Shown here: piece after piece, positions 7,159 through 20,306 of the stretch
Numbering within the stretch: position 1 is the first letter of the stretch
Layout: each line of letters begins with the position of its first letter
Notes under the pieces: generated by a model
Told to the model about the DNA's origin: nothing
The model's database searches: none
The model's input: only the letters and a program-made list of their open reading frames with translations
Assembly: GCA_014860225.1 (NCBI GenBank)
Contig: JACZKE010000001.1
Span: forward strand, 1 to 64,000
Length of the DNA: 64,000 nt
From: Desulfuromonadales bacterium
GTDB lineage: Bacteria; Desulfobacterota; Desulfuromonadia; Desulfuromonadales; BM103
Direction of reading: 5' to 3'
Translations under genes and position numbers: made by a program

Positions 7159-7221
7159 ATGATGGACCGACAACGCGCTCCTGAACTGCCAGAGATAAAG
7201 AGACAGGATCGAGCTGAATGA
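7159..7221 (+). CDS. 20-residue leader ORF coupled to hsdM1
   Basis: Encodes MMDRQRAPELPEIKRQDRAE. A strong GGAGGTTGA ribosome-binding site precedes the double ATG at 7159/7162. Its TGA overlaps the hsdM1 ATG (ATGA at 7218-7221), while hsdM1 has no good site of its own. The small frame therefore probably drives hsdM1 by translational coupling. It could also be a remnant of a longer gene. Confidence 0.5.
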   Translation: MMDRQRAPELPEIKRQDRAE

Positions 7222-8735
7222 GCAGGAAAAACGGAAATAACAATTCAATCGATCTGGATACCGGTACTCTCTCCGGGCATCTCTGGGAGGCGGCCAATAT
7301 CCTGCGAGGTCCTGTCGATGCGGCCGACTTTAAGACCTACATCTTTCCGCTGTTGTTCTTCAAACGGCTCTCCGACGCCTATGACGAAGAGTATGCCGTG
7401 GCCCTGGAAGAGTCCGCCGGCGATGTGGAATTCGCCCAGTTTCCCGAGAACCACCGGTTTCAGGTTCCGGAAGGCTGTCACTGGCAGGATGTCCGGATCA
7501 AGAGCGAGAATATCGGCCATGCGCTCCAGAAGGCCATGCGCTCCATCGAGCAGGCCAACCCGGACACCCTGCACGGCATCTTCGGCGACGCCCAGTGGAC
7601 CAACAAGGACCGCCTGTCAGACGCGCTGCTCAAGGACCTGATCGAACACTTTTCGTCGCTCAACCTGGGCAATGAGCACTGCAAGGCCGACATTCTCGGC
7701 CAGGCCTATGAATACCTGATCAAGAAATTCGCCGACCTGACCAACAAGAAGGCCGGTGAATTCTATACCCCGCGCTCCGTGGTCGCGCTGATGGTCCGTA
7801 TCCTTGCGCCCAAGGCCGGTGAAACCATCTACGATCCGGCCTGCGGGACCGGCGGCATGCTCCTTGAGGCACTGCATCATGTCAAGGAGCATGGCGGCGA
7901 CGAGAACCTCATGCTGGGCAAGCTCTATGGCCAGGAGAAGAACCTGACCACATCCTCCATCGCCCGGATGAACCTCTTTCTCCACGGCGCGGAAGATTTC
8001 CACATCGAACGCGGCGACACCTTGCGCTTGCCAGCCTTTTACTCGGGCGACAGCCTCGCCACCTTTGACTGCGTCATCGCCAATCCTCCCTTCTCCCTGG
8101 AAAAGTGGGGGGACGACGTCTGGATCAATGATCCTTACGGTCGCAACTTTGCTGGATTGCCGCCAGGCAAATCCGGTGACTTCGCCTGGGTTCAGCACAT
8201 GGTCAAGTCCATGGCTCGCAAGACCGGCCGCATGGCCGTGGTGCTTCCCCATGGCGTGCTGTTCCGCATGTCCAAGGAAGGCGAGATCCGGCGCAAACTG
8301 CTGGAGATGGACATCCTCGAAGCGGTGATCGGTCTCGGCCAGAACATTTTCTACGGCACCGGTCTCGCGCCCTGTGTGCTGGTCTTCCGCGACAGCAAGC
8401 CCAAGGCGCACCGCCAGAAGGTGCTGTTCATCGCCGCCTCGAAGGAGTTCAAGATCGGCCGCGCCCAGAACGAGCTGCTGCCCGAGCACGTGGACAACAT
8501 CCATCGCTGGTACGAAGGCTATCAGGATGTGGAAGGGACCTGTCGGGTAGTCACGCTCGACGAGATCCGCGAGAACGATTTCAACCTGAACATCCCCCGC
8601 TACGTGGAGCCGGTGATCGAGGAAGAATCCATGACCATCGATCAGGCCATCGCCAATCTCAAGGAATCGTTGCAGGCGGCGTACACGGCCGAGGATCGCC
8701 TGAAGGGGCTGCTGCTCCGGGAGGGTCTGTTGTGA
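7218..8735 (+). CDS. hsdM: type I restriction-modification methyltransferase subunit (copy 1)
   Basis: 505 residues, normal HsdM length. The N-terminal helical HsdM_N domain (about 15-150) begins LSGHLWEAANILRG. The N6-adenine methyltransferase domain carries the SAM-binding DPACGTGGMLLE motif and the catalytic NPPF motif (IANPPFSLEKWG). It modifies adenine at the site chosen by HsdS. Start is the ATG overlapping the leader stop. The stop overlaps the next gene (GTGA), so the locus is a tightly coupled operon. A second, clearly paralogous hsdM follows at 8956, which is unusual. No disruption is visible. Confidence 0.95.
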   Translation: MSRKNGNNNSIDLDTGTLSGHLWEAANILRGPVDAADFKTYIFPLLFFKRLSDAYDEEYAVALEESAGDVEFAQFPENHRFQVPEGCHWQDVRIKSENIGHALQKAMRSIEQANPDTLHGIFGDAQWTNKDRLSDALLKDLIEHFSSLNLGNEHCKADILGQAYEYLIKKFADLTNKKAGEFYTPRSVVALMVRILAPKAGETIYDPACGTGGMLLEALHHVKEHGGDENLMLGKLYGQEKNLTTSSIARMNLFLHGAEDFHIERGDTLRLPAFYSGDSLATFDCVIANPPFSLEKWGDDVWINDPYGRNFAGLPPGKSGDFAWVQHMVKSMARKTGRMAVVLPHGVLFRMSKEGEIRRKLLEMDILEAVIGLGQNIFYGTGLAPCVLVFRDSKPKAHRQKVLFIAASKEFKIGRAQNELLPEHVDNIHRWYEGYQDVEGTCRVVTLDEIRENDFNLNIPRYVEPVIEEESMTIDQAIANLKESLQAAYTAEDRLKGLLLREGLL

Positions 8736-8959
8736 AAATCTACCAGTACAGATCACCCATCGGCCGCTTCCTCATCAAACCGCAAGCGAACGGTCGCTGG
8801 GGGCTTTGGTTCAAAGACGACCTGCTCGGCTCCTATCACTCTGCCATGGCTGCCGCCGATGACGTCTACACGCAGGCGACCGGCGATTACGACTGGGACT
8901 CCCTGGATGGCGTCGATATTCCAACGGACATTTCTGAATGGGAAGTGGTAGCGCGATGA
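8732..8959 (+). CDS. 75-residue protein between the two hsdM genes
   Basis: Starts with GTG overlapping the hsdM1 stop and ends with TGA overlapping the next ATG (ATGA at 8956-8959), so it is translationally coupled on both sides. The sequence starts MKIYQYRSPIGRFLIKPQ, with GRWGLWFKDDLLGSYHSA in the middle and an acidic C-terminus (DYDWDSLDGVDIPTDISEW). The middle resembles small proteins that recur beside hsd genes and display an aromatic-rich beta-sheet surface. I do not recognise a named family. The coupling implies production in fixed ratio to HsdM, so a structural or regulatory role in the complex is possible. Confidence 0.7.
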   Translation: MKIYQYRSPIGRFLIKPQANGRWGLWFKDDLLGSYHSAMAAADDVYTQATGDYDWDSLDGVDIPTDISEWEVVAR

Positions 8960-10482
8960 AGAAGAACAAACACATTTCCCAATCCCAACTGGAATTCTAC
9001 CTCTGGGGCGCGGCTACTTTGCTGCGCGGCACCATTGACGCCGGGGACTACAAGCAGTTCATCTTTCCGCTGCTGTTCTACAAGCGCCTGTGCGACGTGT
9101 ACGACGAGGAGCTGGCCGATGCGCTGGAGGAATCCGGCGGCGATCAGGAATACGCCGCGCTGCCCGAGCAGCACCGCTTCCAGATCCCGGAGGATGCCCA
9201 CTGGAAGGTCACGCGCACCGTGGTCAAGAATGTGGGCAAGGCCATCCAGGAGGCCCTGCGGGCGATTGAAACCGCCAATCCCGACACCCTGTACGGTGTC
9301 TTCGGCGATGCCCAGTGGACCAACAAGGACCGCCTGCCGGATCACATGCTGCGCGAGCTGATCGAGCACTTCAGCTCGCAGACGCTTTCGCTTTCCAACT
9401 GCCCGGAAGATGAGCTGGGCGTGGGCTACGAGTTCTTGATCAAGAAGTTCGCCGACGATTCCGGCCACACCGCTGCGGAGTTCTATACCAACCGCACCGT
9501 GGTCCATCTGATGACCGAGATGCTCGAACCCAAACCGGGAGAGTCGATCTATGATCCCACCTGCGGGTCAGCGGGCATGCTGCTTTCCGCCGTCGCCCAT
9601 CTGAAACGGCAGAACAAGGAGTGGCGAAACCTTCGGCTGTTCGGCCAGGAGCGCAACCTGCTGACCTCGGCCATCGGCCGCATGAACCTGTTCCTGCACG
9701 GCATTGAGGACTTCCGCATCGTTCGTGACGATACCCTGGCGGGTCCCGCCTTTGTCGAAGGCGACCGGCTCATGCAGTTCGATGTGGTGCTCGCCAATCC
9801 GCCATACTCCATCAAGCAGTGGGACCGTAACGCCTGGTCCGCCGATCCGTGGGGCCGGAACATATATGGCACCCCGCCCCAGGGCCGCGCCGACTATGCC
9901 TTCTGGCAGCACATCATCAAGAGCATGAAAGCCAAAAGCGGCCGCTGCGCCATCCTGTTCCCGCATGGCGTTCTCTTTCGCAATGAAGAATCTGCTATGC
10001 GCGAGAAGCTGGTCGCTCACGACGTGGTGGAGTGTGTGCTGGGCCTTGGCCCCAACCTCTTTTACAACTCACCCATGGAAGCCTGCGTGGTGATCTGCCG
10101 CATGAACAAGCCCAAGGAACGCAGAAACAAGGTGCTCTTCATCAACGCGGTGAATGAGGTGACCCGAGAGCGGGCACAGAGCTTCCTCACCGATAACCAC
10201 CTCCAGCGCATTGTTGATACCTATCAGACTTTTACCGACGAGGAAGGCTTTGCCCGGGTGGTCAGCAATGATCAGATCCGCGAGAAGGGCGGTAACCTCA
10301 GCATTCCGCTCTATGTGCGGGTGCAAACGGCTGCGGCGGGGAGAGTTGCGGAGGAACAAGCGCTTTATGGGAAGACGAGCCTCAAGCAGGCCATTGCCAA
10401 CTGGCAGGAAAGCTCACAGGGGTTGCGTTCGTCGATGGATGGACTGCTGAAAATGCTGGAAGGAATCGACAACGGGCAGTAA
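8956..10482 (+). CDS. hsdM: type I restriction-modification methyltransferase subunit (copy 2)
   Basis: 508 residues from the ATG at 8956, chosen because it overlaps the upstream stop; an in-frame ATG at 8938 would add six residues. HsdM_N domain starts LEFYLWGAATLLRG, followed by the SAM motif DPTCGSAGMLLS and catalytic motif LANPPYSIKQW. Both subunits share long blocks (for example NPDTL-GFGDAQWTNKDRL with small changes), so they arose by duplication, but motif I differs (CGTGG against CGSAG) and motif IV differs (NPPF against NPPY). Both could act in one heteromeric enzyme, or copy 2 could serve a separate lost specificity subunit. It is intact. Confidence 0.93.
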   Translation: MKKNKHISQSQLEFYLWGAATLLRGTIDAGDYKQFIFPLLFYKRLCDVYDEELADALEESGGDQEYAALPEQHRFQIPEDAHWKVTRTVVKNVGKAIQEALRAIETANPDTLYGVFGDAQWTNKDRLPDHMLRELIEHFSSQTLSLSNCPEDELGVGYEFLIKKFADDSGHTAAEFYTNRTVVHLMTEMLEPKPGESIYDPTCGSAGMLLSAVAHLKRQNKEWRNLRLFGQERNLLTSAIGRMNLFLHGIEDFRIVRDDTLAGPAFVEGDRLMQFDVVLANPPYSIKQWDRNAWSADPWGRNIYGTPPQGRADYAFWQHIIKSMKAKSGRCAILFPHGVLFRNEESAMREKLVAHDVVECVLGLGPNLFYNSPMEACVVICRMNKPKERRNKVLFINAVNEVTRERAQSFLTDNHLQRIVDTYQTFTDEEGFARVVSNDQIREKGGNLSIPLYVRVQTAAAGRVAEEQALYGKTSLKQAIANWQESSQGLRSSMDGLLKMLEGIDNGQ

Positions 10483-10495
10483 ACAGGTTATTGTT

Positions 10496-10525
10496 TGACA
10501 CAAAAATACATATATTTTTGTGTCA
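10496..10525. promoter_or_regulatory. 30-bp operator-like palindrome before the AbiEi-like gene
   Basis: Perfect 13-bp arms TGACACAAAAATA/TATTTTTGTGTCA around CATA, eight bases before the next ATG. A TTGACA at 10495-10500 overlaps the left arm and may be a -35 box. This suits autorepression by the antitoxin-like protein that follows. Confidence 0.7.
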
Positions 10526-10533
10526 GGTGAGTT

Positions 10534-11151
10534 ATGGATAAAATTTCAAAAAATACTGATAGTCAGATACTTAGCCGGATATACGGGCATAGGAGGGGTT
10601 GGGTCTTTACTCCAAACCATTTCAAGGACCTCGGCAGCCGCGATGCCATTGCTTCGGCCTTGAAGCGCCACAAGCAATCCGGGCTGATTCGCCAGTTGGC
10701 TCGAGGCCTCTATGACTACCCGAAGACTGACCCTGAACTGGGACCCTTGCAGCCCTCTACAGATGACATCGCCAAGGCTTTGGCTGGCCGGGACGCCTCC
10801 CGTCTGCAGCCGACGGGGGCCTACGCCGCCAATCTGCTCGGGCTTTCCACCCAGGTGCCGATGAAAGTCACCTACCTGACGGACGGCCTTTCCCGTACCC
10901 TGCAAATCGGCAAGCGGCAGATCACCTTGAAACGGACAACACCGCGCAACATGGCAACCGCCGGCAAGGTCAGCGGCCTGGTCATCCAGGCGTTGCGGCA
11001 CCTGGGGCAGGCGCATATTGATAAACAGGTCATCGCACAACTGGATCGGGTTCTCGATGCGCAGGCCAAGTCCCAATTGATGAAAGATATTCGTTATGCG
11101 CCGGCCTGGATTGCCGACATCATCCGCGACCTGGCAGGCAGGGAGAATTAA
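10534..11151 (+). CDS. AbiEi-like antitoxin / DUF6088-family protein
   Basis: 205 residues. N-terminal winged-helix (about 10-65; RRGWVFTPNHFKDLGSRDAI with LARGLYDYP) followed by the conserved middle of DUF6088/AbiEi proteins (PTGAYAANLLGLSTQVP and YLTDGLSRTLQIGKRQI). These are normally DNA-binding antitoxins that repress their own operon and are followed by an AbiEii nucleotidyltransferase toxin. Here no toxin follows. The next 280 bases have only an inverted repeat and no gene, so it appears to be an orphan. The palindrome immediately upstream is its likely operator. GTGAG before the ATG is a modest ribosome-binding site. Confidence 0.75.
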   Translation: MDKISKNTDSQILSRIYGHRRGWVFTPNHFKDLGSRDAIASALKRHKQSGLIRQLARGLYDYPKTDPELGPLQPSTDDIAKALAGRDASRLQPTGAYAANLLGLSTQVPMKVTYLTDGLSRTLQIGKRQITLKRTTPRNMATAGKVSGLVIQALRHLGQAHIDKQVIAQLDRVLDAQAKSQLMKDIRYAPAWIADIIRDLAGREN

Positions 11152-11183
11152 TGATCAATTTCCTGACGCCACGAAATTGATCA
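11152..11183. repeat. perfect 11-bp inverted repeat at the end of the AbiEi-like gene
   Basis: TGATCAATTTC and GAAATTGATCA separated by 10 bases, overlapping the stop codon. No T run follows, so it is not a classical terminator. It may be an operator or a scar where the partner toxin gene was lost. Confidence 0.55.
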
Positions 11184-11396
11184 AAGCATCGGGCGAATGA
11201 ACGTTGAGCTGCAGATAGAAGAGACCCGAGGAACGACGACTTGTCCAACCATTGGTAGGAGATTTACAGTGATCGCTTCCTGGTCGGCCGGGACAAGTCA
11301 ACAGCACACAATCGGAAAAATAAGCTGACTTCGAGCAGGACATTGCAAACTGTCTCGGAGTTTCGAGTCGTTGCAAATAGACCTATCGCAGGATTT

Positions 11397-11421
11397 TTTA
11401 TTAACCAATTGCGTTAATAAA
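11397..11421. promoter_or_regulatory. operator-like palindrome before the HigBA-type module
   Basis: Nine-base arms TTTATTAAC/GTTAATAAA around CAATTGC, 20 bases before the toxin start. Such sites are usual targets of the XRE antitoxin in these modules. Confidence 0.65.
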
Positions 11422-11441
11422 AATATTGACGGAGGGCGGGT

Positions 11442-11789
11442 TTGGATATATCCTTTAAAAACAAAAAACTCGAAAAAGAGTTCAATGAGGGGGCACATCT
11501 CAGCAAGATACATGGGGCCAAGCGAGCGAAAAAGATCCGTATACGAATGGCGGAATTTCGAGCAGCGACAAGTCTGATGGACTTTTGGCCCCCCAAAAGC
11601 GGCCCCAGCCGGTGCCACGAGTTGACCCAGGGAAAACGCAAGGGGCAGCTTTCCGTCGATTTAGACCATCCCTATCGCTTGATTTTCATTCCCGATCATG
11701 ACCCTGCCCCCGAACGTGAGGATGGTGGTCTGGATTGGTTGCAGGTGACGGCTATCAAGGTTTTGGGAGTGGAGGATACCCATGAGTAG
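11442..11789 (+). CDS. RelE/ParE-family (HigB-like) toxin
   Basis: 115 residues with the compact RelE/ParE pattern: MDISFKNKKLEKEFNE, then AKRAKKIRIRMAEFRAA, LTQGKRKGQLSVDL and HPYRLIFIP. HigB-type members are ribosome-dependent mRNA interferases; the basic residues here are compatible, but activity cannot be judged. The start is TTG at 11442, chosen because a strong GGAGGG site sits five bases upstream and no ATG is suitably placed. The stop overlaps the following antitoxin ATG (ATGAGTAG), so both are co-translated. Toxin-first order is typical of higBA. Confidence 0.8.
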   Translation: MDISFKNKKLEKEFNEGAHLSKIHGAKRAKKIRIRMAEFRAATSLMDFWPPKSGPSRCHELTQGKRKGQLSVDLDHPYRLIFIPDHDPAPEREDGGLDWLQVTAIKVLGVEDTHE

Positions 11790-12885
11790 AGCGCAAGCAA
11801 ACCATTTTGTCCCCGATTATCTGGTGACCCCCGGCGAGGTTCTTGAAGATTATCTGGATGATTTTGGCATGACTCAGGCCGAGCTTGCCGACCGGATGGG
11901 TTTGGCTAAAAAAACCATCAACGAAATCATCAAGGGCAAAGCTCCAATCACGACCGAGACAGCATTGAAGCTGGAGCGTACCCTGGGGCGGCCTGCACAT
12001 TTCTGGTGTAATCTGGAAAGACAATACCAGGAGGATCGGTTACGAATCGCAGAGCAGCAGCGCATGGAATCCGACCTGGACTGGCTGGAAAAAGTTCCCG
12101 TTGCGGCAATGGCCAAGCTCGGTTGGATTCCCAGACTGAAAACCCAGTTTGAGAGACTGGAAGCCGTTCTTTGCTTTTTCGGCATTGCCTCTCCCGCACA
12201 ATGGGAGACGGTATGGCGCGAGCATCAAGTTGCTTACCGGCAGACAGAAAATTTTGCAAACTGTGCGGAATCGGTTTCAGCCTGGCTGCGGCAAGGAGAA
12301 ATCCAGGCACAACAGATTGACTGTGCCCCCTTCGACAAAAAAACTTTTCAGAATGTTCTTGGTGAAGTGCGTGATTTGACCCGAGAGGAAGCTCCAGATG
12401 TTTTTGTTCCCAAGTTGGTTGAGCTTTGTGCTTCTGCTGGTGTTGCCGTTGTTTTTGTTCCTGAGCTCCCCAAGACGGGGACTTACGGCGCAACACGCTG
12501 GCTTGGTGAGCGAGCGGTAATTCAGCTCAGTTTGCGTTACAAGAGCAACGATCATCTGTGGTTTACCTTTTTCCACGAGGCCGGTCATATTCTCAAGCAC
12601 GGTCGAAAGGATGTCTTTATCGAGGGGAAGAATGGTTTAGATAATGAGAAGGAAGAAGAAGCAAATGTATTCTCCCGCGACAAGTTGATCCCGCCTCAAG
12701 AATATCGCCGGTTCCTCGCGAGTTGGGATGGACGCTCTCTCGCTCCTGTCGAAGCTTTCGCTGAAGAAATCCAGATTGCTCCGGGGATTGTTGTTGGCCG
12801 GTTGCAGCATGACAGTCGCCTCCCCAAAGGAATTGGTAATAAATTGAAAGTCTTTTATCGCTGGTCGACTGGTAAGGGTGAGTAA
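11782..12885 (+). CDS. XRE antitoxin fused to ImmA/IrrE-type metallopeptidase
   Basis: 367 residues. An XRE/HigA helix-turn-helix occupies about residues 15-75 (MTQAELADRMGLAKKTINEI). The C-terminal half has an ImmA/IrrE zinc peptidase with the HExxH site in FFHEAGHILKHG and a downstream glutamate-rich helix (EEEANVFSRDKLIP). The HTH part likely neutralises the upstream toxin and represses the operon. The peptidase part is typical of regulators that cleave repressors in response to stress. Long HigA-ImmA fusions next to a HigB-like toxin are known. It is intact, directly upstream of the TIR cassette. Confidence 0.85.
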   Translation: MSRAQANHFVPDYLVTPGEVLEDYLDDFGMTQAELADRMGLAKKTINEIIKGKAPITTETALKLERTLGRPAHFWCNLERQYQEDRLRIAEQQRMESDLDWLEKVPVAAMAKLGWIPRLKTQFERLEAVLCFFGIASPAQWETVWREHQVAYRQTENFANCAESVSAWLRQGEIQAQQIDCAPFDKKTFQNVLGEVRDLTREEAPDVFVPKLVELCASAGVAVVFVPELPKTGTYGATRWLGERAVIQLSLRYKSNDHLWFTFFHEAGHILKHGRKDVFIEGKNGLDNEKEEEANVFSRDKLIPPQEYRRFLASWDGRSLAPVEAFAEEIQIAPGIVVGRLQHDSRLPKGIGNKLKVFYRWSTGKGE

Positions 12886-13006
12886 TGGCTTTTTAAACCC
12901 TGGAATCTGGATGGAAGATGGTCAAGTTTGACGGCACTCGCAGAACGTTGCTGTGCGGGTGGCCAATAATTGAAATATTCAGTGCCCTACTGCCAAGGAG
13001 GATATT

Positions 13007-13528
13007 ATGCCAATTTTCATTTCCCACACCACCCAGGATGATTCATTAGCACAGAAGGTTTTTATTCGGCTAAAACACACTCATGGCATCGATTGCTATA
13101 TCGACGACATGGACAAAGAGCTTTCAAGCAAACGTGGAAGTGCTCAATTAACACCTATTCTTGTGGATCGTCTACGACGTTGCGATACAATACTGGCCGT
13201 CGTTTCAAGCAATACGAAAAATTCGTGGTGGGTTCCTTTTGAGATTGGAACCGCCCGTGAGATGCCCAGAGTCATAACAAGTTACACTTCTCTTCGCGAC
13301 CAACCGCTGTACTCGGGCCAAGATGCTTTACCTGAATATCTATTGGAGTGGCCGCGATTAAGAACAGACAGCGAAATCGATGTTTTTGCTCGTGAGTACA
13401 AGCGAAAGCTATTTCTGGTTGAGTCATCAACGGGACGAGTGAAAACTGCTGGCACATATGCCCGAGCTCAGGATGTTAGGAATTTTGAGTCAAGCGTTAT
13501 GGCGTCGCTTGGACAAAAGGCTTATTGA
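13007..13528 (+). CDS. short TIR-domain protein
   Basis: 173 residues, essentially one TIR domain. It begins with the strand-A signature MPIFISHTTQDDSLAQ; the helix after strand C carries the expected NADase glutamate in WWVPFEIGTA (E79). AGGAGG stands seven bases before the ATG. Bacterial TIR domains cleave NAD+ or make cyclic ADP-ribose isomers. This one has no other domain, so it may be a signal producer or a sensor adaptor. It is first of three TIR genes, 57 bases before the next. It is AT-richer than the flanking hsd genes, suggesting separate origin. Confidence 0.85.
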   Translation: MPIFISHTTQDDSLAQKVFIRLKHTHGIDCYIDDMDKELSSKRGSAQLTPILVDRLRRCDTILAVVSSNTKNSWWVPFEIGTAREMPRVITSYTSLRDQPLYSGQDALPEYLLEWPRLRTDSEIDVFAREYKRKLFLVESSTGRVKTAGTYARAQDVRNFESSVMASLGQKAY

Positions 13529-13585
13529 TTAGCATGCTCAGAGACCCCTGTTGTGTAGGGGATAAGGGAATAGGAGGGGCTGATT

Positions 13586-14143
13586 ATGCCGCTATTTACT
13601 CGACGAAAAGTCTTTATTACGCATTACAAAGGTGACCGAAATGAAATCGACAACTTTATTAATTATTTTGCAAATATACACGGAATTTTCATCCCTAAGG
13701 TCTTAGGGGCAAATGACAACGATGATTTCATCAATAGCTCGAACACGGATTATGTCATGGGACAAATCCGCCAGAGGTATTTACAGGATAGCACCGTAAC
13801 AATAGTTCTTCTCGGCAGTTGCACCCATAGCCGGCGGTATGTTGACTGGGAGATCAAAAGTTCTCTTCGTCAAGGCCAGTATGCCCCCAATGGGCTTATG
13901 GGGATTGTGCTTCCAAGTCAAAACAATACAGCCCATTTGCCACCAAGGCTTAAGGCAAACTGGAATGAAAATCATCAAAATTGCTATGCAAGATATTGGT
14001 CATACCCAAGCTCGCCAGATCAGCTAGCCGGCTGGATCGAGGAGGCCTATAGTGCTCGTACTGCACGTGCACACCTGATTCAGAATGCCCAAGATATGAT
14101 GAAATACAACGCATGCTGCAATATTTGCGGAGTGACTCACTGA
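13586..14143 (+). CDS. ThsB-like TIR protein (DUF1863 family)
   Basis: 185 residues. Starts RKVFITHYKGDRNEIDNF and contains STVTIVLLGSCTHSRRYVDWEI, the signature of the TIR-like DUF1863 family to which Thoeris ThsB belongs. The candidate catalytic glutamate is E89 in DWEI. In Thoeris, ThsB senses phage and synthesises a cyclic ADP-ribose isomer. The C-terminus has a short cysteine-rich tail (CCNICGVTH) not typical of ThsB that might bind metal. AGGAGG precedes the ATG. Its TGA overlaps the next ATG (TGATG), so the following TIR-SLOG protein is coupled to it. This is the best candidate for the signal-making component. Confidence 0.8.
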   Translation: MPLFTRRKVFITHYKGDRNEIDNFINYFANIHGIFIPKVLGANDNDDFINSSNTDYVMGQIRQRYLQDSTVTIVLLGSCTHSRRYVDWEIKSSLRQGQYAPNGLMGIVLPSQNNTAHLPPRLKANWNENHQNCYARYWSYPSSPDQLAGWIEEAYSARTARAHLIQNAQDMMKYNACCNICGVTH

Positions 14144-16185
14144 TGGGCGCGATCTTTCAGCCGCCACTTGCCGTGCATTTTGTTTGGCACCCATCGGACC
14201 AGGGTTCTGTCGATCCCATTCTTGAGATTATTTCCACGCACCTTGCGAGAAACGTCGATCGACCGTTTTCGAGGGCCTTGAATTTCCCCCTTTTTCTTTA
14301 TAGCTCCAATAGTCCGACACTTGCTCCAGAGAACTTCCCGCAGGAACTTGCATCTCGTAACGTGGTCTTTGTGTTGACGAGTGTCAATACGCGGGGGCAT
14401 GACAAGTGGAATGAATATATTCGGGACATGTCTAATGCGGACTCAATGCGAGTTGTTCCAGTGGCATTAGACCATGATGGTCTTGGGCACAGTGGGGAAG
14501 GCAGTCTCAAAGGGCGTAATTTTATCCGTGCATATGACTGGCCAAAGAAATCAGCACCGCAACATGCAATTCTTGCGATGACCCATGAAATATTCCGTTA
14601 TGGATTTGCAGAAATAGATTCCGTCAAAAAAGGAAATTCTTCTTCAATAAAACTCTTTCTGAGCCATTCAAAAAGTGGAGACACAGGAAAACTTCATGCT
14701 GAATCTCTCAAGCATTTCATTGAAAACACGAATATGTCCCATTTCTTTGATGAGACGGAGATTTCACCCGGGTTTAAATTTAATGATGAAATAATTAACC
14801 ACATAAAAGGATCGACCGTAATTGCGATCAGTAGTGATGCATATTCTTCTCGTTACTGGTGTCAACGAGAAATTTTATGTGCAAAAGAACATTTTAGACC
14901 AATGATTGCAGTTGATTGTTTGGAAGAGTACGAGGATAGAATTTTTCCTGCGGGCTCCAATGTCCCCTGTGTCCATGTCTCGCCAGAACCACCTCTATCT
15001 GAAGAAGATATTCTGAGAATTCTTGTCACAGCGATCTTGGAAACAGTTCGACATCGTTATGCTGTAAAACTTCTTGAGTATTACCGAGAAAGAGGTTGGA
15101 TAAGTGCCGATTGCGCACTCTTGCCACGCCCCCCAGAAGTTCGACAGCTACTTTCACTAAAAGCAGATGGTAAGATTAACAAAATTTGCTACCCTGAGCC
15201 TCCAATCTACTCGGAGGAAGCCGATTGGCACCGGCAGCTTGGGATTGAGACTTTTACTCCACTCTGGAGGAGAGATGAAAGCAACTCTCTCCATGAGTTA
15301 AGAATTGGTATTTCAATATCGAATATTGCAAATAATGGATACGGGGCAAACCATCTTCCAGCGAGTCAAACGACAAGATTAGCCCAAGATTTGGCTCGAC
15401 ATCTTCTTGCTAGGTCGGCAACTCTTATTTATGGGGGAGATTTGCGAGAAGATGGGTTCACTGAGTTCATTTTGAACGAAGCTGTTGCACTCAAATCACG
15501 TCTTAATTCAGATGGTATTTATGTAGAAAACCACTTGGCTTGGCCCCTGCATGTCGCGGATCCAAAGTTAACCGCCTGGCGTGCGAAATACAGAGATGTC
15601 ATGGATACGGTTAACCACAATATCCCTGATGATATTGCTGGTGAGATCGACAAAGATCACTCCCTTCCCCCGTCCTCTCCTGAAAATAAGTACTACTTGT
15701 CTCGATGCCTCACTGAAATGCGACAGAAATCGATTGCATCCACAAACGCACGCGTTTGCGTCGGGGGAAAGCTCTCTGGTTATAGCGGCAAGATGCCTGG
15801 CGTTTTAGAAGAAATTCTTATTGCTATCAATAATGGCCAGCCTATTTATTTATTGGGCGCGTTTGGAGGCGTAGTTGGCGAAGTCTGCAAGTTGCTTCGG
15901 GACAAATCATATCCCAAAACTTTGACAGAGGCATGGCAAGCCACTCACAACGCCGGTTATGTGGACTTACAGGAAATTGCTACAAAGCATGGGATGCAAG
16001 CAGACTATGGAAATGTGAAATCTGTACTCGAACGTGTTGATATTTCTGACATTGTCATAAATGCTGGTTTAGATAAGGAGACATATTTGCGGTTGATGGA
16101 GTCACCTTTCGTAGATGAATGCATCCATATCGTCCTGCAGGGACTAAAAAAAGTTGCAGCTCAAGATATGGAACATGCCAAATGA
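14143..16185 (+). CDS. TIR-SLOG fusion protein, candidate effector
   Basis: 680 residues from the ATG that overlaps the ThsB-like stop; an in-frame ATG at 14113 lies inside that gene. Residues 1-160 look like a divergent TIR-like fold (VHFVWHPSDQ, VVFVLTSVNTRGHDKW, VVPVALD) without an obvious catalytic glutamate. Residues 168-300 are a canonical TIR (IKLFLSHSKSGDTGKLHAES) with the glutamate in WCQREIL (E243). Residues 385-590 form a SLOG-type Rossmann domain with IYGGDLREDGFTE, GGKLSGYSGKMPGVLEEI and YLLGAFGGVVGEV. SLOG domains bind nucleotides; in Thoeris ThsA one binds the TIR-made signal. Here it is fused to a TIR rather than to Sir2. The stop overlaps the hsdS ATG. Confidence 0.82.
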   Translation: MGAIFQPPLAVHFVWHPSDQGSVDPILEIISTHLARNVDRPFSRALNFPLFLYSSNSPTLAPENFPQELASRNVVFVLTSVNTRGHDKWNEYIRDMSNADSMRVVPVALDHDGLGHSGEGSLKGRNFIRAYDWPKKSAPQHAILAMTHEIFRYGFAEIDSVKKGNSSSIKLFLSHSKSGDTGKLHAESLKHFIENTNMSHFFDETEISPGFKFNDEIINHIKGSTVIAISSDAYSSRYWCQREILCAKEHFRPMIAVDCLEEYEDRIFPAGSNVPCVHVSPEPPLSEEDILRILVTAILETVRHRYAVKLLEYYRERGWISADCALLPRPPEVRQLLSLKADGKINKICYPEPPIYSEEADWHRQLGIETFTPLWRRDESNSLHELRIGISISNIANNGYGANHLPASQTTRLAQDLARHLLARSATLIYGGDLREDGFTEFILNEAVALKSRLNSDGIYVENHLAWPLHVADPKLTAWRAKYRDVMDTVNHNIPDDIAGEIDKDHSLPPSSPENKYYLSRCLTEMRQKSIASTNARVCVGGKLSGYSGKMPGVLEEILIAINNGQPIYLLGAFGGVVGEVCKLLRDKSYPKTLTEAWQATHNAGYVDLQEIATKHGMQADYGNVKSVLERVDISDIVINAGLDKETYLRLMESPFVDECIHIVLQGLKKVAAQDMEHAK

Positions 16186-17359
16186 GCACACAATACCTGA
16201 AGCCCGGCTGGAAGATGGTAAAGTTCGGCGAGGTGGTGAAGAATGCCAACCTCGTGGAGCGTGATCCCGGGGCCAATGGCGTTGAAAGAATCGTCGGCTT
16301 GAACACATCGACCCTGAGAATCTGCATATCCGTCGCTGGAACTCTGTTGCGGATGGCACTTCGTTTACCCGCAAGTTCGTGCCGGGGCAGACGCTTTTCG
16401 GCAAGCGTCGCGCCTATCAACGCAAGGTTGCCTATGCCGAGTTTGAAGGCATTTGCTCCGGGGACATCCTGACGTTCGAGCCGAAAAACAGAAAGGTTCT
16501 GCTGCCGGAACTTCTGCCATTTATCTGCCAGAGCGATGCCTTCTTTGATCATGCGCTCGATACCTCGGCCGGATCGCTGTCACCCCGGACCAGTTGGACG
16601 GCGTTGAAGGACTTCGAATTCCCGCTGCCGCCACGTGATGAGCAGAAGCGCATTGCCGAGATCCTGTGGGCAGCGGATGAAGCGGCATCTGCTTATCAAG
16701 AGGCCCTAAATCATATTCACATCGTTTCTCAAATTAGTCTTGAGCACACGCTCGACACCCTGAATTGTCCTGAATTGTAGCTACCCGATGTTCTTTTCGG
16801 CAGTCCGGAAAGCGGTTGCTCAGCCCCACCATCATCCGACGAGACAGGCCGCTGGGTATTGTCCTTAGCTGCTCTTTCCTCCAACGGATATGTCCGAGGA
16901 AATCTTAAACCGGTCGCGAAAACCAACAGAATGATTGGAGCCACCCTGTCCAAAGGTGATTTGCTCCTTTCACGTTCGAATACGGTCGATTTGGTTGGGT
17001 TCGCAGGGATTTTTGACGAAGATCGCACGGATGTTTCTTTCCCTGACACCATGATGCGGTTGCCAGTAAATACGCAGAAAGCGCTTCCTGATTATCTTGA
17101 ACTGGTGCTTCTTTCCAGTCGGGGTAGACGCCACATGATGAAGACGGCTTCAGGCACCAGTAGCAGCATGAAAAAGATCAATAGGAAGACCCTCGCTGAA
17201 TTCAGATTCCCTGTCCCAGACCTTGATACCCAGAAACGGATTGTGTCGGAATTCAATGAACAGAAGAGCCATAGAGAAACTATAGCAAATCACATTTCTA
17301 AGACCCAAAGGATGCTCTCGCTGTTCAGTAATGAAACGATAGGAGGCGTCCATGTTTAA
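16182..17359 (+). pseudogene. hsdS: type I specificity subunit, broken
   Basis: Starts MSTQYLKPGWKMVKFGEVV at an ATG overlapping the TIR-SLOG stop. After VERIVGL the frame is lost near 16300: one base is missing and the protein continues one frame over as EHIDPENLHIRRWNSVADG, through the first target-recognition domain and the conserved helix (PRDEQKRIAEILWAADEA). A TAG at 16778-16780 then stops it beside a tandem TGAATTGTCC/TGAATTGTAG duplication. The same frame resumes with the second recognition domain (SPESGCSAPPSSDETGRW) and ends TLAEFRFPVPDLDTQKRI. The usual start of the second domain is missing, so a deletion is also likely. No functional full-length HsdS should be made unless sequencing errors explain this. 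Confidence 0.8.
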
Positions 17360-20306
17360 CGAAGAAAACACGGTCGAACAGATGGTTCTCGACACGCTCT
17401 GCGGCAGCGTGACTTCGAACATGGTTGCCGAAGAGCTCGCCAGTTATGGCGGCGAGATCAAAGGCTGGCGCTTCGTGTCCGCCGAGGAACTGCCCCGCCA
17501 GCACTCCGACGTGCTGGTGGAGTCGATGGTGCGTGACGCCCTCATCCGCCTGAACCCGGAAATCAAGGCCCAGCCCGACCGTGCCGATGAGGTGCTCTAT
17601 CGCCTGCGAACCATTCCGCTGTCAGTGCAGAGCGAAGGCCTGGTGCGGGCCAACGAACTGTTCGCCGAATAGTTGCGCGGCGAGAAGTCCATGCCATTCG
17701 GCGAGCGCGGCGAACATACACAGGTAACGCTGATCGACTTCGAGAACCTGAGCAACAACGATTACGTGGTCACCAACCAGTGGGTTTACCCGGTCAAGGA
17801 AGGCGGCCGCCGCTTCGACATTATTATGCTGGTCAACGGCATCCCGCTGGTGATCGGTGAAGTCAAAGCCCCGTCGCGCCCGGCGGTGACCTGGGTGGAC
17901 GGGGCCAGCGACATCCACAACGGCTACGAACTGAGCGTGCCGCAGATGTTCGTGCCCAACGTCCTCTCCTTTGCCACCGAGGGCAAGTGCTATCGCTATG
18001 GCTCGGTGCGCATGCCCATCGATATCTGGGGGCCGTGGCACGAAGGCGAGAACAAGGCGGAGGGGACCCTTGAGGACGTGCAGCGCTCCATCCGTTCCAT
18101 GCTGCGCCCCCATGTGGTGCTGGACATCCTGCAGAACTTCACCCTGTTCGCCACCGACAAGAAACACCGGCGCATCAAGATCATCTGCCGCTATCAGCAG
18201 TACGAAGGCGCTAACCTGATGGTGGCCCGCGTGGTCAAGGGTTATCCCAAAAAGGGCCTGATCTGGCACTTCCAGGGCTCGGGCAAGTCGCTGCTGATGG
18301 TGTTCGCGGCGCAGAAGCTGCGGATGCATCGCAAGCTCGGCAATCCCACGGTGATGATCGTGGTGGACCGCATCGACCTGGACACCCAGATCACCGCCAC
18401 CTTCAACGCCGCCGATACTCCGAACATGATCGGGGCCGCCACCCGGCAGGAGCTGCAAAGCCTGCTGGCGGCCGATACCCGTAAGATCATCATCACCACC
18501 ATTCACAAGTTCGGCGAGGCGGATGGCCGCCTGAACGAGCGCTCGAACATCATCGTCATGGTGGACGAGGCGCACCGCACCCAGGAAGGCGACTTGGGGC
18601 GCAAGATGCGCGACGCACTGCCTAACGCCTTTCTCTTTGGCCTGACCGGCACGCCGATCAACAAGCGGGACCGCAACACCTTCTGGGCCTTCGGCGCGGA
18701 CGAGGATGAGCAGGGCTATATGAGCCGTTACTCGTTCCAGGACTCGATCCGTGACAAGGCCACGCTGCCGCTGCATTTTGAGGCAGTGGACGTGAAGCTG
18801 CACATCAACAAGGACGCCATCGACGAAGCCTACTCGCAGATGACCGATGAGTTGAGCGAGCTGGATCGTGACGACCTGGCCAAGCGGGCCGCCAAGATGG
18901 CGGTGCTGATCAAGGCCCCGGTGCGGGTGAACGCCATCTGTCAGCATATCGTCAGGCACTTCGAGGAGAAAGTGGAACCGAACGGCTTCAAGGCTCAGGT
19001 GGTGACCTTTGACCGGGAATGCTGCGTGCTCTACAAGAGAGCCATAGACGAGCTGGTCGGCCCGGAGGCAAGCGCCATCGTCATGCACACCCAGGGTGGC
19101 AAGTCCGATCAGTACGCGGAATGGAAGCTGGCCAAGGACGAGGAGGAAAGGCTCCTCGACCGTTTCCGCGATCCGATTGATCCGCTCAAGTTCCTGATCG
19201 TCACCTCCAAGCTACTGACCGGCTTCGATGCGCCCATTTTGCAGGTGATGTACCTCGACAAGCCGATGAAGGACCATAATCTCCTGCAGGCCATCTGCCG
19301 CACCAACCGCGTCTACCCCGACAAGACCCACGGTCTGATCGTCGATTACCTGGGTATCTTCGATGACGTGGCCAAGGCCCTTGATTTCGATGAAAAGGCG
19401 GTGCAGAAGGCCATCACCAATCTGGACGAGCTCAAGAAAGAGCTGCCCGGCGTGGTGGAGAGATGCCTTTCGTTCTTCCCCGGGGTGGACCGCACCGTCG
19501 GCGGCTACGAAGGGCTGATTGCGGCGCAGGATTGCCTGCCGGATAACGAGACCCGTGACAAATTCGCGGCGGGATACTCGGTGCACTCCCGTCTGTGGGA
19601 GGCGCTGTCCCCCGATGCATGTCTCGGTCCTTATGAAAAGGACTACAAATGGCTGACTCAGGTTTATGAATCAGTGAAGCCGCCGAGCGGCAACGGTAAG
19701 CTGCTCTGGCACGCCCTGGGGGCCAAGACCATCGAGCTGGTGCATGAGAACGTGCATCTGGAGACGGTGCGCGATGATCTGGATACCCTGGTGATGGACG
19801 CCGAGGTCCTCGAAGGGCTGCTCGATGCCAAGGACCCGGACAAGAAATCCAGGGAAATCGAGATCAAGCTCATCGCCCGCCTGCGCAAGCACAAGGACAA
19901 TCCGAAGTTTGTCGCCCTGGGCGAGCGCCTCGAAAAGCTCAAAGAGCGGCACGAACAGGGCCTACTCCACAGCCTCGACTTCCTCAAGGAGCTGCTGACC
20001 CTGGCCAGAGAGGTCGTCCAGGCCGAGAAGCAGGTGGACCCAGTCGATGAGCAGGCCAAGGCCAAAGCGGCCCTGACCGAGCTGTTCGCCGAGGTGAAGA
20101 ACGGCAAGACGCCGATGGTGGTCGAGCGGATCGTGACCGATATCGACGAGATCGTGCGGCTGGTCCGGTTCCCCGGCTGGCAAAACACCAAAGCCGGAGA
20201 GCGCGAGGTCCAGAAGGCCCTGCGCAAAGTGATTTACGTGAAGTATCAGGTCAAGGACCAGGATCTGTTCGACAAGGCGTTCGGATATATCCGGCAGTAC
20301 TACTGA
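17352..20306 (+). pseudogene. hsdR: type I restriction subunit with an internal amber stop
   Basis: Overlaps the hsdS end (ATGTTTAA). The first 106 codons are the HsdR N-terminus and stop at TAG 17670-17672. The same frame continues LRGEKSMPFGERGEH. Related HsdR proteins have tryptophan at this point, so TGG has become TAG. The rest is complete: PD-(D/E)xK nuclease (FDIIMLVNGIPLVIGEVKAP), helicase motor with Walker A FQGSGKS, DEAH box VMVDEAHRTQEG, motif III GLTGTPI and motif VI QAICRTNRVYP, then the C-terminal helical part. Re-initiation at ATG 17691 would give an 871-residue protein with nuclease and motor but without the first 113 residues. Either a pseudogene or a restriction-reduced allele. 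Confidence 0.85.

Follow-up and report, generated by a model that had tools for sequence, protein, structure and literature searches.

A three-gene TIR cassette with a candidate TIR-SLOG effector suggests a Thoeris-like relay in a Desulfuromonadales bacterium

The DNA analysed in this study is a 64,000-nucleotide stretch of a Desulfuromonadales bacterium (GenBank assembly GCA_014860225.1, contig JACZKE010000001.1, positions 1 to 64,000), hereafter the window. At 13007-16185 it carries a cassette of three genes: a stand-alone TIR gene (gene 1), a ThsB-type TIR gene (gene 2) and a gene for an effector candidate (gene 3) in which an N-terminal domain, a TIR domain and a C-terminal SLOG cluster2 domain are joined. 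The cassette is probably a Thoeris-like abortive-infection relay, in which the sensor TIRs would make a messenger, the SLOG domain would read it and the fused TIR domain would destroy NAD+. The sequences show how the genes are ordered, which domains and conserved residues they have, that they are linked across phyla and that readers and effectors are swapped; from this we infer every biochemical step and the anti-phage role.

Results

The three genes are intact; they are co-directional and the last two overlap by TGATG, as a preliminary description of this DNA had stated, and E79, E89 and E243 lie where it had placed them. Strong ribosome-binding sites precede genes 1 and 2 (AAGGAGG, AGGAGGGG). 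The longest open frame of gene 3 begins at 14113 (14113-16185, + strand); because of the TGATG overlap with gene 2 and a GGAG at 14129-14132, the ATG at 14143 is most likely the start, giving 680 amino acids, and residue numbers for gene 3 refer to this form. Gene 1 matched the Pfam families TIR_2 (E 5.7e-9) and ThsB_TIR (5.4e-7), exceeding the curated cut-off in both cases, and its best PADLOC match was ThsB (2.4e-14). Gene 2 matched ThsB_TIR (2.8e-16), again with ThsB as the best PADLOC match (1.9e-9), and the PADLOC matches of both genes were mostly ThsB, in agreement with their earlier assignment as a TIR and a ThsB-type TIR, respectively. ThsB_TIR is the Pfam family formerly named DUF1863. 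The arrangement is not due to chance: in the 3.94 Mb genome no ThsB_TIR match was found besides genes 1 and 2, and the linkage is retained in relatives.

Gene 3 matched TIR_2 (4.8e-9), Pfam TIR and SLOG cluster2 (PF18163, 2.7e-57; 194.8 bits against a cut-off of 25.3). No Pfam match at E <= 1 was obtained for Sir2 in gene 3 or for a macro domain in genes 1 to 3. Its three PADLOC matches were weak (1.2e-4 or worse) and all ran via the TIR domain. Likewise, its Thoeris-named matches were weak, ran via the TIR and concerned TIR proteins only: ThsB (0.0031) and ThcB4 (3.2e-4), the latter being the sole NCBIfam Thoeris match, with 19.7 bits against a cut-off of 220 (NCBIfam June 2026, PADLOC 2.0.0). 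The proposed fusion of a TIR to a C-terminal SLOG is thus upheld by Pfam, with the amendments that the SLOG is cluster2 and not the STALD class of ThsA, that a conserved N-terminal domain had been missed, and that the SLOG is a separate gene at 8 of the 21 loci compared.

These 21 loci include the window. Left out before counting were three entries from one genome (L028, L017 and L020 of G276), whose effector is broken where the contig ends and whose neighbours recur at L026; L018 and L019, with weak matches to the TIR only; and L033-L037 (partial SLOG matches, two of whose genomes were examined as L039 and L040). L023 and L024 are near copies. Ten collinear relatives of gene 3 were aligned, seven with 60-70% identity and three with 26-30%. 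The residues expected of catalytic TIR domains were retained throughout: F172 and E243 in 21/21 effector TIRs, F10 and E89 in 19/19 ThsB-type proteins and F4 and E79 in 7/7 gene-1-type proteins (at L044 the tallies cover the TIR frame and the SLOG frame only), so that the three glutamates do occupy conserved TIR positions, as had been supposed. Against the PDB, the gene-2 family profile matched 8wcf (1.1e-13), 6lhy (2e-13) and ThsB1 9b7d (2.1e-13); 6lhy is BcThsB (PMC11204291). The gene-1 family profile matched 8btn (8.6e-20), and the effector profile matched Roq1 (2.3e-5) and SARM1 (4e-4) over its TIR. When the N-terminal domain of gene 3 was aligned with the TIR domain by hhalign, the match extended over 123 columns but was weak (E 0.007, probability 5%), and the position of the catalytic Glu was I, V or L in all 20 sequences having that position. 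The N-terminal domain is possibly a TIR without the catalytic Glu, a "dead TIR".

The SLOG domain of ThsA has been assigned to the STALD class (PMC7272460). STALD (PF18185) gave only E 0.047 and 13.6 bits on gene 3, below its cut-off of 24, and by its profile matches the gene 3 SLOG is cluster2, outside that class; therefore 3' cyclic ADP-ribose (3'cADPR) cannot be assumed as its ligand, and no ligand assignment for SLOG cluster2 was found in the literature searched. S393, R527, E556 and E557 were present in 21/21 SLOG domains. R527 and E557, the latter being the second invariant Glu, fall on R371 and E403 of ThsA (6lhx numbering; sub-threshold match, E 0.024-0.21), which are ligand-pocket residues (PMC7272460), and S393 would correspond to ThsA S288, being placed by motif only and outside the aligned pair. 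In the search of a motif-region profile (16 relatives) against the PDB, BcThsA structures took ranks 3-5 of 23 (7uxs 0.024; 6lhx and 8bto 0.21). Rank 1 (0.013) was a molybdenum cofactor carrier, a protein named in connection with the SLOG superfamily (PMC7272460), and rank 2, at the same significance level as ThsA, was the unrelated ribosomal protein L24. With the whole-domain profile ThsA was eighth of 8 (E 1.1).

The effector is a single fused gene at 12 of the 21 loci, a two-domain TIR gene directly followed by a SLOG gene at 8, and broken at one (L044), where an IS3-family transposase separates the TIR and SLOG pieces. Three changes between the fused and split states are required on a tree of 20 effectors, whose deep forks are weak; for these reasons no claim is made on which state is older. 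Beside the effector stands an intact ThsB-type gene at 16 loci and a remnant at one (L001). Twelve loci had served to build the ThsB profile, and of the nine outside it five matched (the L001 remnant, L008, L038, L041 and L042). A gene-1-type neighbour was found at 7 loci, of which L038, a split-form locus with both sensor types, is the only one independent of the gene-1 profile. A ThsB-type gene plus effector is thus the common core; an effector in fused or split form is accompanied by both sensor types in 7/21. The genes therefore do co-occur elsewhere, as had been expected. Within the class, ThsB_TIR adjoins the effector in 7 of the 8 genomes with a full-length effector, and in the eighth (G192, no ThsB_TIR match listed) the sequence ends 33 bases past the effector. 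With a background of 68 ThsB_TIR matches in 45/271 genomes, adjacency by chance would be about 7e-4 per locus, a rough figure that ignores relatedness.

Reader and effector modules were also found in other combinations, in two neighbourhoods met in passing, outside any systematic search. L040 (G477) encodes a 531-amino-acid protein in which a patatin phospholipase (6.3e-24) is fused to a cluster2-like SLOG stretch (4.5e-9, 70 positions). Two ThsB_TIR genes and one TIR_2 gene lie on its flanks (L040:3973-7275), and the set is a candidate TIR-triggered phospholipase system. In G024 (L049:3-3129, minus strand), TIR_2, ThsB_TIR and 386-amino-acid TIR genes are followed by a SLOG cluster3 gene (5e-78), about 6 kb past the type I restriction locus of that genome, in what may be a parallel TIR-SLOG system. 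Both arrangements are expected if SLOG reads a TIR-made messenger.

A type I restriction locus houses the cassette, which stands between its hsdM and hsdS genes in a defence-type setting that includes AbiEi-like and HigB-like/HTH-M78 genes (Table 1). A search for hsdR in 58 genomes gave two near matches: G024, on a single contig in the same order with 95% protein identity, and G035, with 57%. Both have hsdM-hsdM-hsdS-hsdR without the cassette. The main segments of G024 are 89-92% identical to the window DNA, whereas the interval between the aligned hsdM and hsdS parts is 0.8 kb in G024 (L049) and 5.9 kb in the window. The hsdM frame is 724 amino acids long in G024 against 514 in the window, so the cargo may have replaced the hsdM end. 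The cassette-free loci of the relatives, the shorter G024 interval and the lower G+C of the cassette (44.7% vs 52.4% for the window) together suggest that the window locus acquired it as cargo once the two loci had separated. Both hsdS and hsdR are interrupted in the window (16182-17672), through real decay or assembly error: hsdS is spread over different frames and contains an in-frame stop, and a TAG at 17670-17672 breaks the frame of hsdR. Each is a single open frame in G024. A tandem pair of type I methyltransferase genes occupies 7218-10482, and is also present in G024 (L049) and L050. At 11442-12885 a HigB-like gene (below the Pfam cut-off) and a gene for an HTH plus M78-peptidase protein adjoin the cassette; the latter matches PADLOC PD-Lambda-2_B (1.4e-34), and the pair is another candidate defence module.

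Table 1. Features of the cassette and its surroundings (window coordinates)
Feature	Position	Strand	Basis
Stretch with hsdM end, AbiEi-like gene, HigB-like/HTH-M78 pair and TIR cassette, 5.9 kb	10311..16197	+	blastn vs L049
Gene 1, stand-alone TIR protein	13007..13528	+	open frame, 173 aa, E79
Gene 2, ThsB-type TIR	13586..14143	+	open frame, 185 aa, E89
TGATG stop/start overlap of genes 2 and 3	14141..14145	+	sequence
Gene 3, effector candidate (N-terminal domain, TIR, SLOG cluster2)	14143..16185	+	680 aa, E243
N-terminal domain of gene 3, about residues 1-162	14143..14628	+	conserved across effectors
Catalytic-type TIR domain of gene 3, E243	14656..14925	+	TIR_2 match; F172/E243 kept; plant TIR and SARM1 PDB matches
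SLOG cluster2 domain of gene 3	15289..16083	+	PF18163 2.7e-57; 3.3e-58 in second profile search

The cassette is cargo-like and patchy in distribution. In the class, 11/277 genomes matched, 8 of them at full length (own genome included); in a search of relatives the own genome was the one match among 58, and ten genomes of the same genus, several of which are incomplete, gave no match. By family, SLOG cluster2 was found in 6/395 genomes of the phylum, with 5 of them above the cut-off, and in 0/14 controls, and one scan of genome contigs with gene 3 gave one relative. Among 72,556 plasmid records searched by tblastn, 11 matched, 5 covering >=80% of the query and all with <60% identity, and these came from Cyanobacteriota, Bacillota, Bacteroidota, Pseudomonadota and Actinomycetota. 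No relative was found in phage records by tblastn or in E. coli genomes by blastn of the cassette DNA, and among viral contigs 68 pattern matches yielded no confirmed relative.

Several neighbourhoods of the relatives have features of their own. At L022:2224-6807, L025:10022-14554 and L027:2641-7249, the effector and a ThsB-type TIR gene are followed by nucleotide-processing genes (Nmad2, dCTP-deaminase-like, thymidylate-kinase-like, HMUDK_hel, the 5-hmdU DNA kinase helical domain, and thymidylate-synthase), assigned by Pfam on L022 and by similar start and order on L025 and L027; a link to nucleotide hypermodification is possible. Annotated uracil-DNA glycosylase genes lie near the split or broken system on three alphaproteobacterial plasmids (L009:137-820, L041:2882-3550, L044:1551-2222). 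On an Aureispira plasmid the effector has several TIR genes to one side and a nucleoside-deoxyribosyltransferase-like gene to the other (L005:4942-9447), with annotated CRISPR genes (cmr6, cas6) nearby. L026 (G192) and L028 (G276), from different genomes, have a long region ahead of the effector in common, in which gene starts and lengths are equal; the effector is broken in one of them, and the shared region points to recent transfer or contamination.

Discussion

In the proposed relay, genes 1 and 2 would encode TIR enzymes; jointly or each on its own, they would detect infection and convert NAD+ to an ADP-ribose-type messenger. Gene 3 would bind this messenger through its SLOG cluster2 domain, whose pocket would hold a ThsA-like Arg/Glu pair. 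Binding would drive the assembly of gene 3, whose TIR (E243) would then destroy NAD+ and stop the infected cell. The N-terminal domain would serve as a non-catalytic, possibly TIR-derived module that aids assembly or autoinhibition. Since staphylococcal Thoeris pairs ThsB1 with ThsB2 beside one effector, gene 1 may be an obligate partner of gene 2 instead of a second sensor. The Thoeris-like logic of the preliminary description is accordingly retained as regards TIR sensors, a SLOG reader and a NADase-type effector domain, all recognised by sequence.

Several observations weigh against this relay. A ThsB-type gene was not found at 4/21 loci, all outside the ThsB profile: a different TIR gene is present at L003, the sequence of L026 stops 33 bases after the effector and L044 is IS-interrupted, whereas L043 is without such explanation. 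Gene-1-type neighbours occur in 7/21 only, and 6/7 of those built the profile that marks them. The alignments with the ThsA SLOG are all below significance (E 0.024-1.1). That the C-terminal part folds as SLOG is borne out by its Pfam match, but structure prediction was uninformative, both for full-length gene 3 with L001 (mean predicted local distance difference test score, pLDDT, 30; predicted template modelling score, pTM, 0.19) and for the SLOG alone (mean pLDDT 36, pTM 0.23). A STALD search of 198 genomes, own genome included, matched nowhere, not even in its 14 controls, and is hence uninformative; a ThsA elsewhere in the genome is possible.

The SLOG could also be an enzyme rather than a sensor, cleaving the messenger or another nucleotide, either as an off-switch or to make the final toxic or signalling product, with the gene 3 TIR as another messenger maker. 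LOG phosphoribohydrolases, which are cleaving enzymes, provide the model. The gene 3 SLOG has the motif GG...PGVxEE with an invariant Glu pair, which resembles the LOG motif and counts in favour of such an enzyme. Moreover, SLOG domains include N-glycosidases (PMC9503650), the SLOG is its own gene in 8/21 loci, and nucleotide-processing genes are present at L022. However, a ThsA-like insertion lies between the GG and PG..E parts, the motif aligns with ThsA R371/E403, and fusion to effector-type domains (TIR here, patatin in L040) is a reader/effector architecture; we regard an enzymatic SLOG as unlikely. Rather improbable, too, is a direct NADase complex co-assembled from all three TIR proteins, with no messenger from genes 1 and 2 and with the SLOG sensing a phage or host nucleotide. 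Self-association underlies TIR NADase activity (PMC11204291), ThsB1 and ThsB2 form a complex with a phage capsid protein (PMC12578639), and thymidylate-type and annotated uracil-DNA glycosylase genes occur in relatives, all of which would fit such a complex; but the gene 2 family is related to BcThsB 6lhy, a messenger-making ThsB (PMC13232231), and L040 has the same Pfam kinds of sensor with a TIR-free effector. Finally, the interrupted hsdS and hsdR, together with the broken ThsB-type gene of L001 and effector of L044, would suit a decayed, perhaps non-working remnant in a broken type I restriction locus, but the cassette genes are all full length, with ribosome-binding sites and every tallied residue, and this explanation is very improbable.

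Compared with known systems, the cassette resembles Thoeris type I (ThsA Sir2-SLOG plus ThsB TIR) in having a ThsB-type TIR, with conserved catalytic Glu and Phe, beside an effector with a NADase-type domain and a C-terminal SLOG, whose pocket Arg/Glu pair is in register by a sub-threshold alignment. Unlike type I, it has TIR for Sir2, cluster2 for STALD, an extra N-terminal domain and two different sensor TIRs; because Sir2 and STALD are lacking it is not type I, although its logic is otherwise Thoeris-like. Staphylococcal Thoeris, with ThsB2 as its cyclase, likewise has two TIR proteins beside one effector and a Phe/Glu active-site pair, but its ThsB1 is a protein of 41.8 kDa (tagged) that binds the phage capsid protein, whereas the sensors here have 173 and 185 amino acids and the effector is TIR-SLOG (PMC12578639). 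Thoeris with a TM-macro ThsA also pairs a ThsB TIR with a nucleotide-reading effector, but there the effector is a membrane protein and reads by means of a macro domain (PMC11204291). The SAVED-TIR and STING-TIR effectors of cyclic-oligonucleotide-based anti-phage signalling (CBASS; PMC11204291) and the CARF-TIR protein Cat1 of CRISPR systems (PMC12162218) share the fusion of a messenger-binding domain to a TIR NADase, but use other reader domains than SLOG and non-TIR messenger makers.

As a verdict on novelty and not on mechanism, the chance that the cassette is an ordinary member of a Thoeris type already in the 2025 TIR-system survey (Yirmiya et al., doi 10.64898/2025.12.03.692087) is put slightly below even. 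That survey is cited in PMC13232231, which uses type VI Thoeris, so further Thoeris types exist, and NCBIfam holds a type III family; on the other side, the Thoeris-named matches of gene 3 in NCBIfam and PADLOC are weak TIR-protein matches only, and no description was found in the literature searched. The term "TIR-SLOG" occurred there in PMC9503650 alone, as a passing phrase. Gene 3 is a Pfam member of SLOG cluster2 (PF18163), but PF18163 is a domain class and not a tested system. No tested TIR-SLOG effector was recognised in that literature, which left out the 2025 TIR-system preprint and Burroughs et al. 2015, the latter reportedly concerned with TIR/SLOG associations.

If the relay reading is correct, the killing step itself can be a TIR. 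We propose, tentatively, that TIRs here both write the message and kill, by way of a cluster2 reader and with a dead TIR-like domain as platform, and that cluster2 is an exchangeable reader, joined to TIR here and to patatin in L040, for a messenger maybe other than 3'cADPR. Which ADP-ribose derivative SLOG cluster2 reads would then be a directly testable ligand question. Furthermore, free recombination of the reader and killer modules of TIR immunity (Sir2-SLOG, TIR-SLOG, patatin-SLOG) would be suggested, and one mechanism would unite gene sets carried on plasmids of Cyanobacteriota, Bacillota, Bacteroidota, Actinomycetota and Pseudomonadota.

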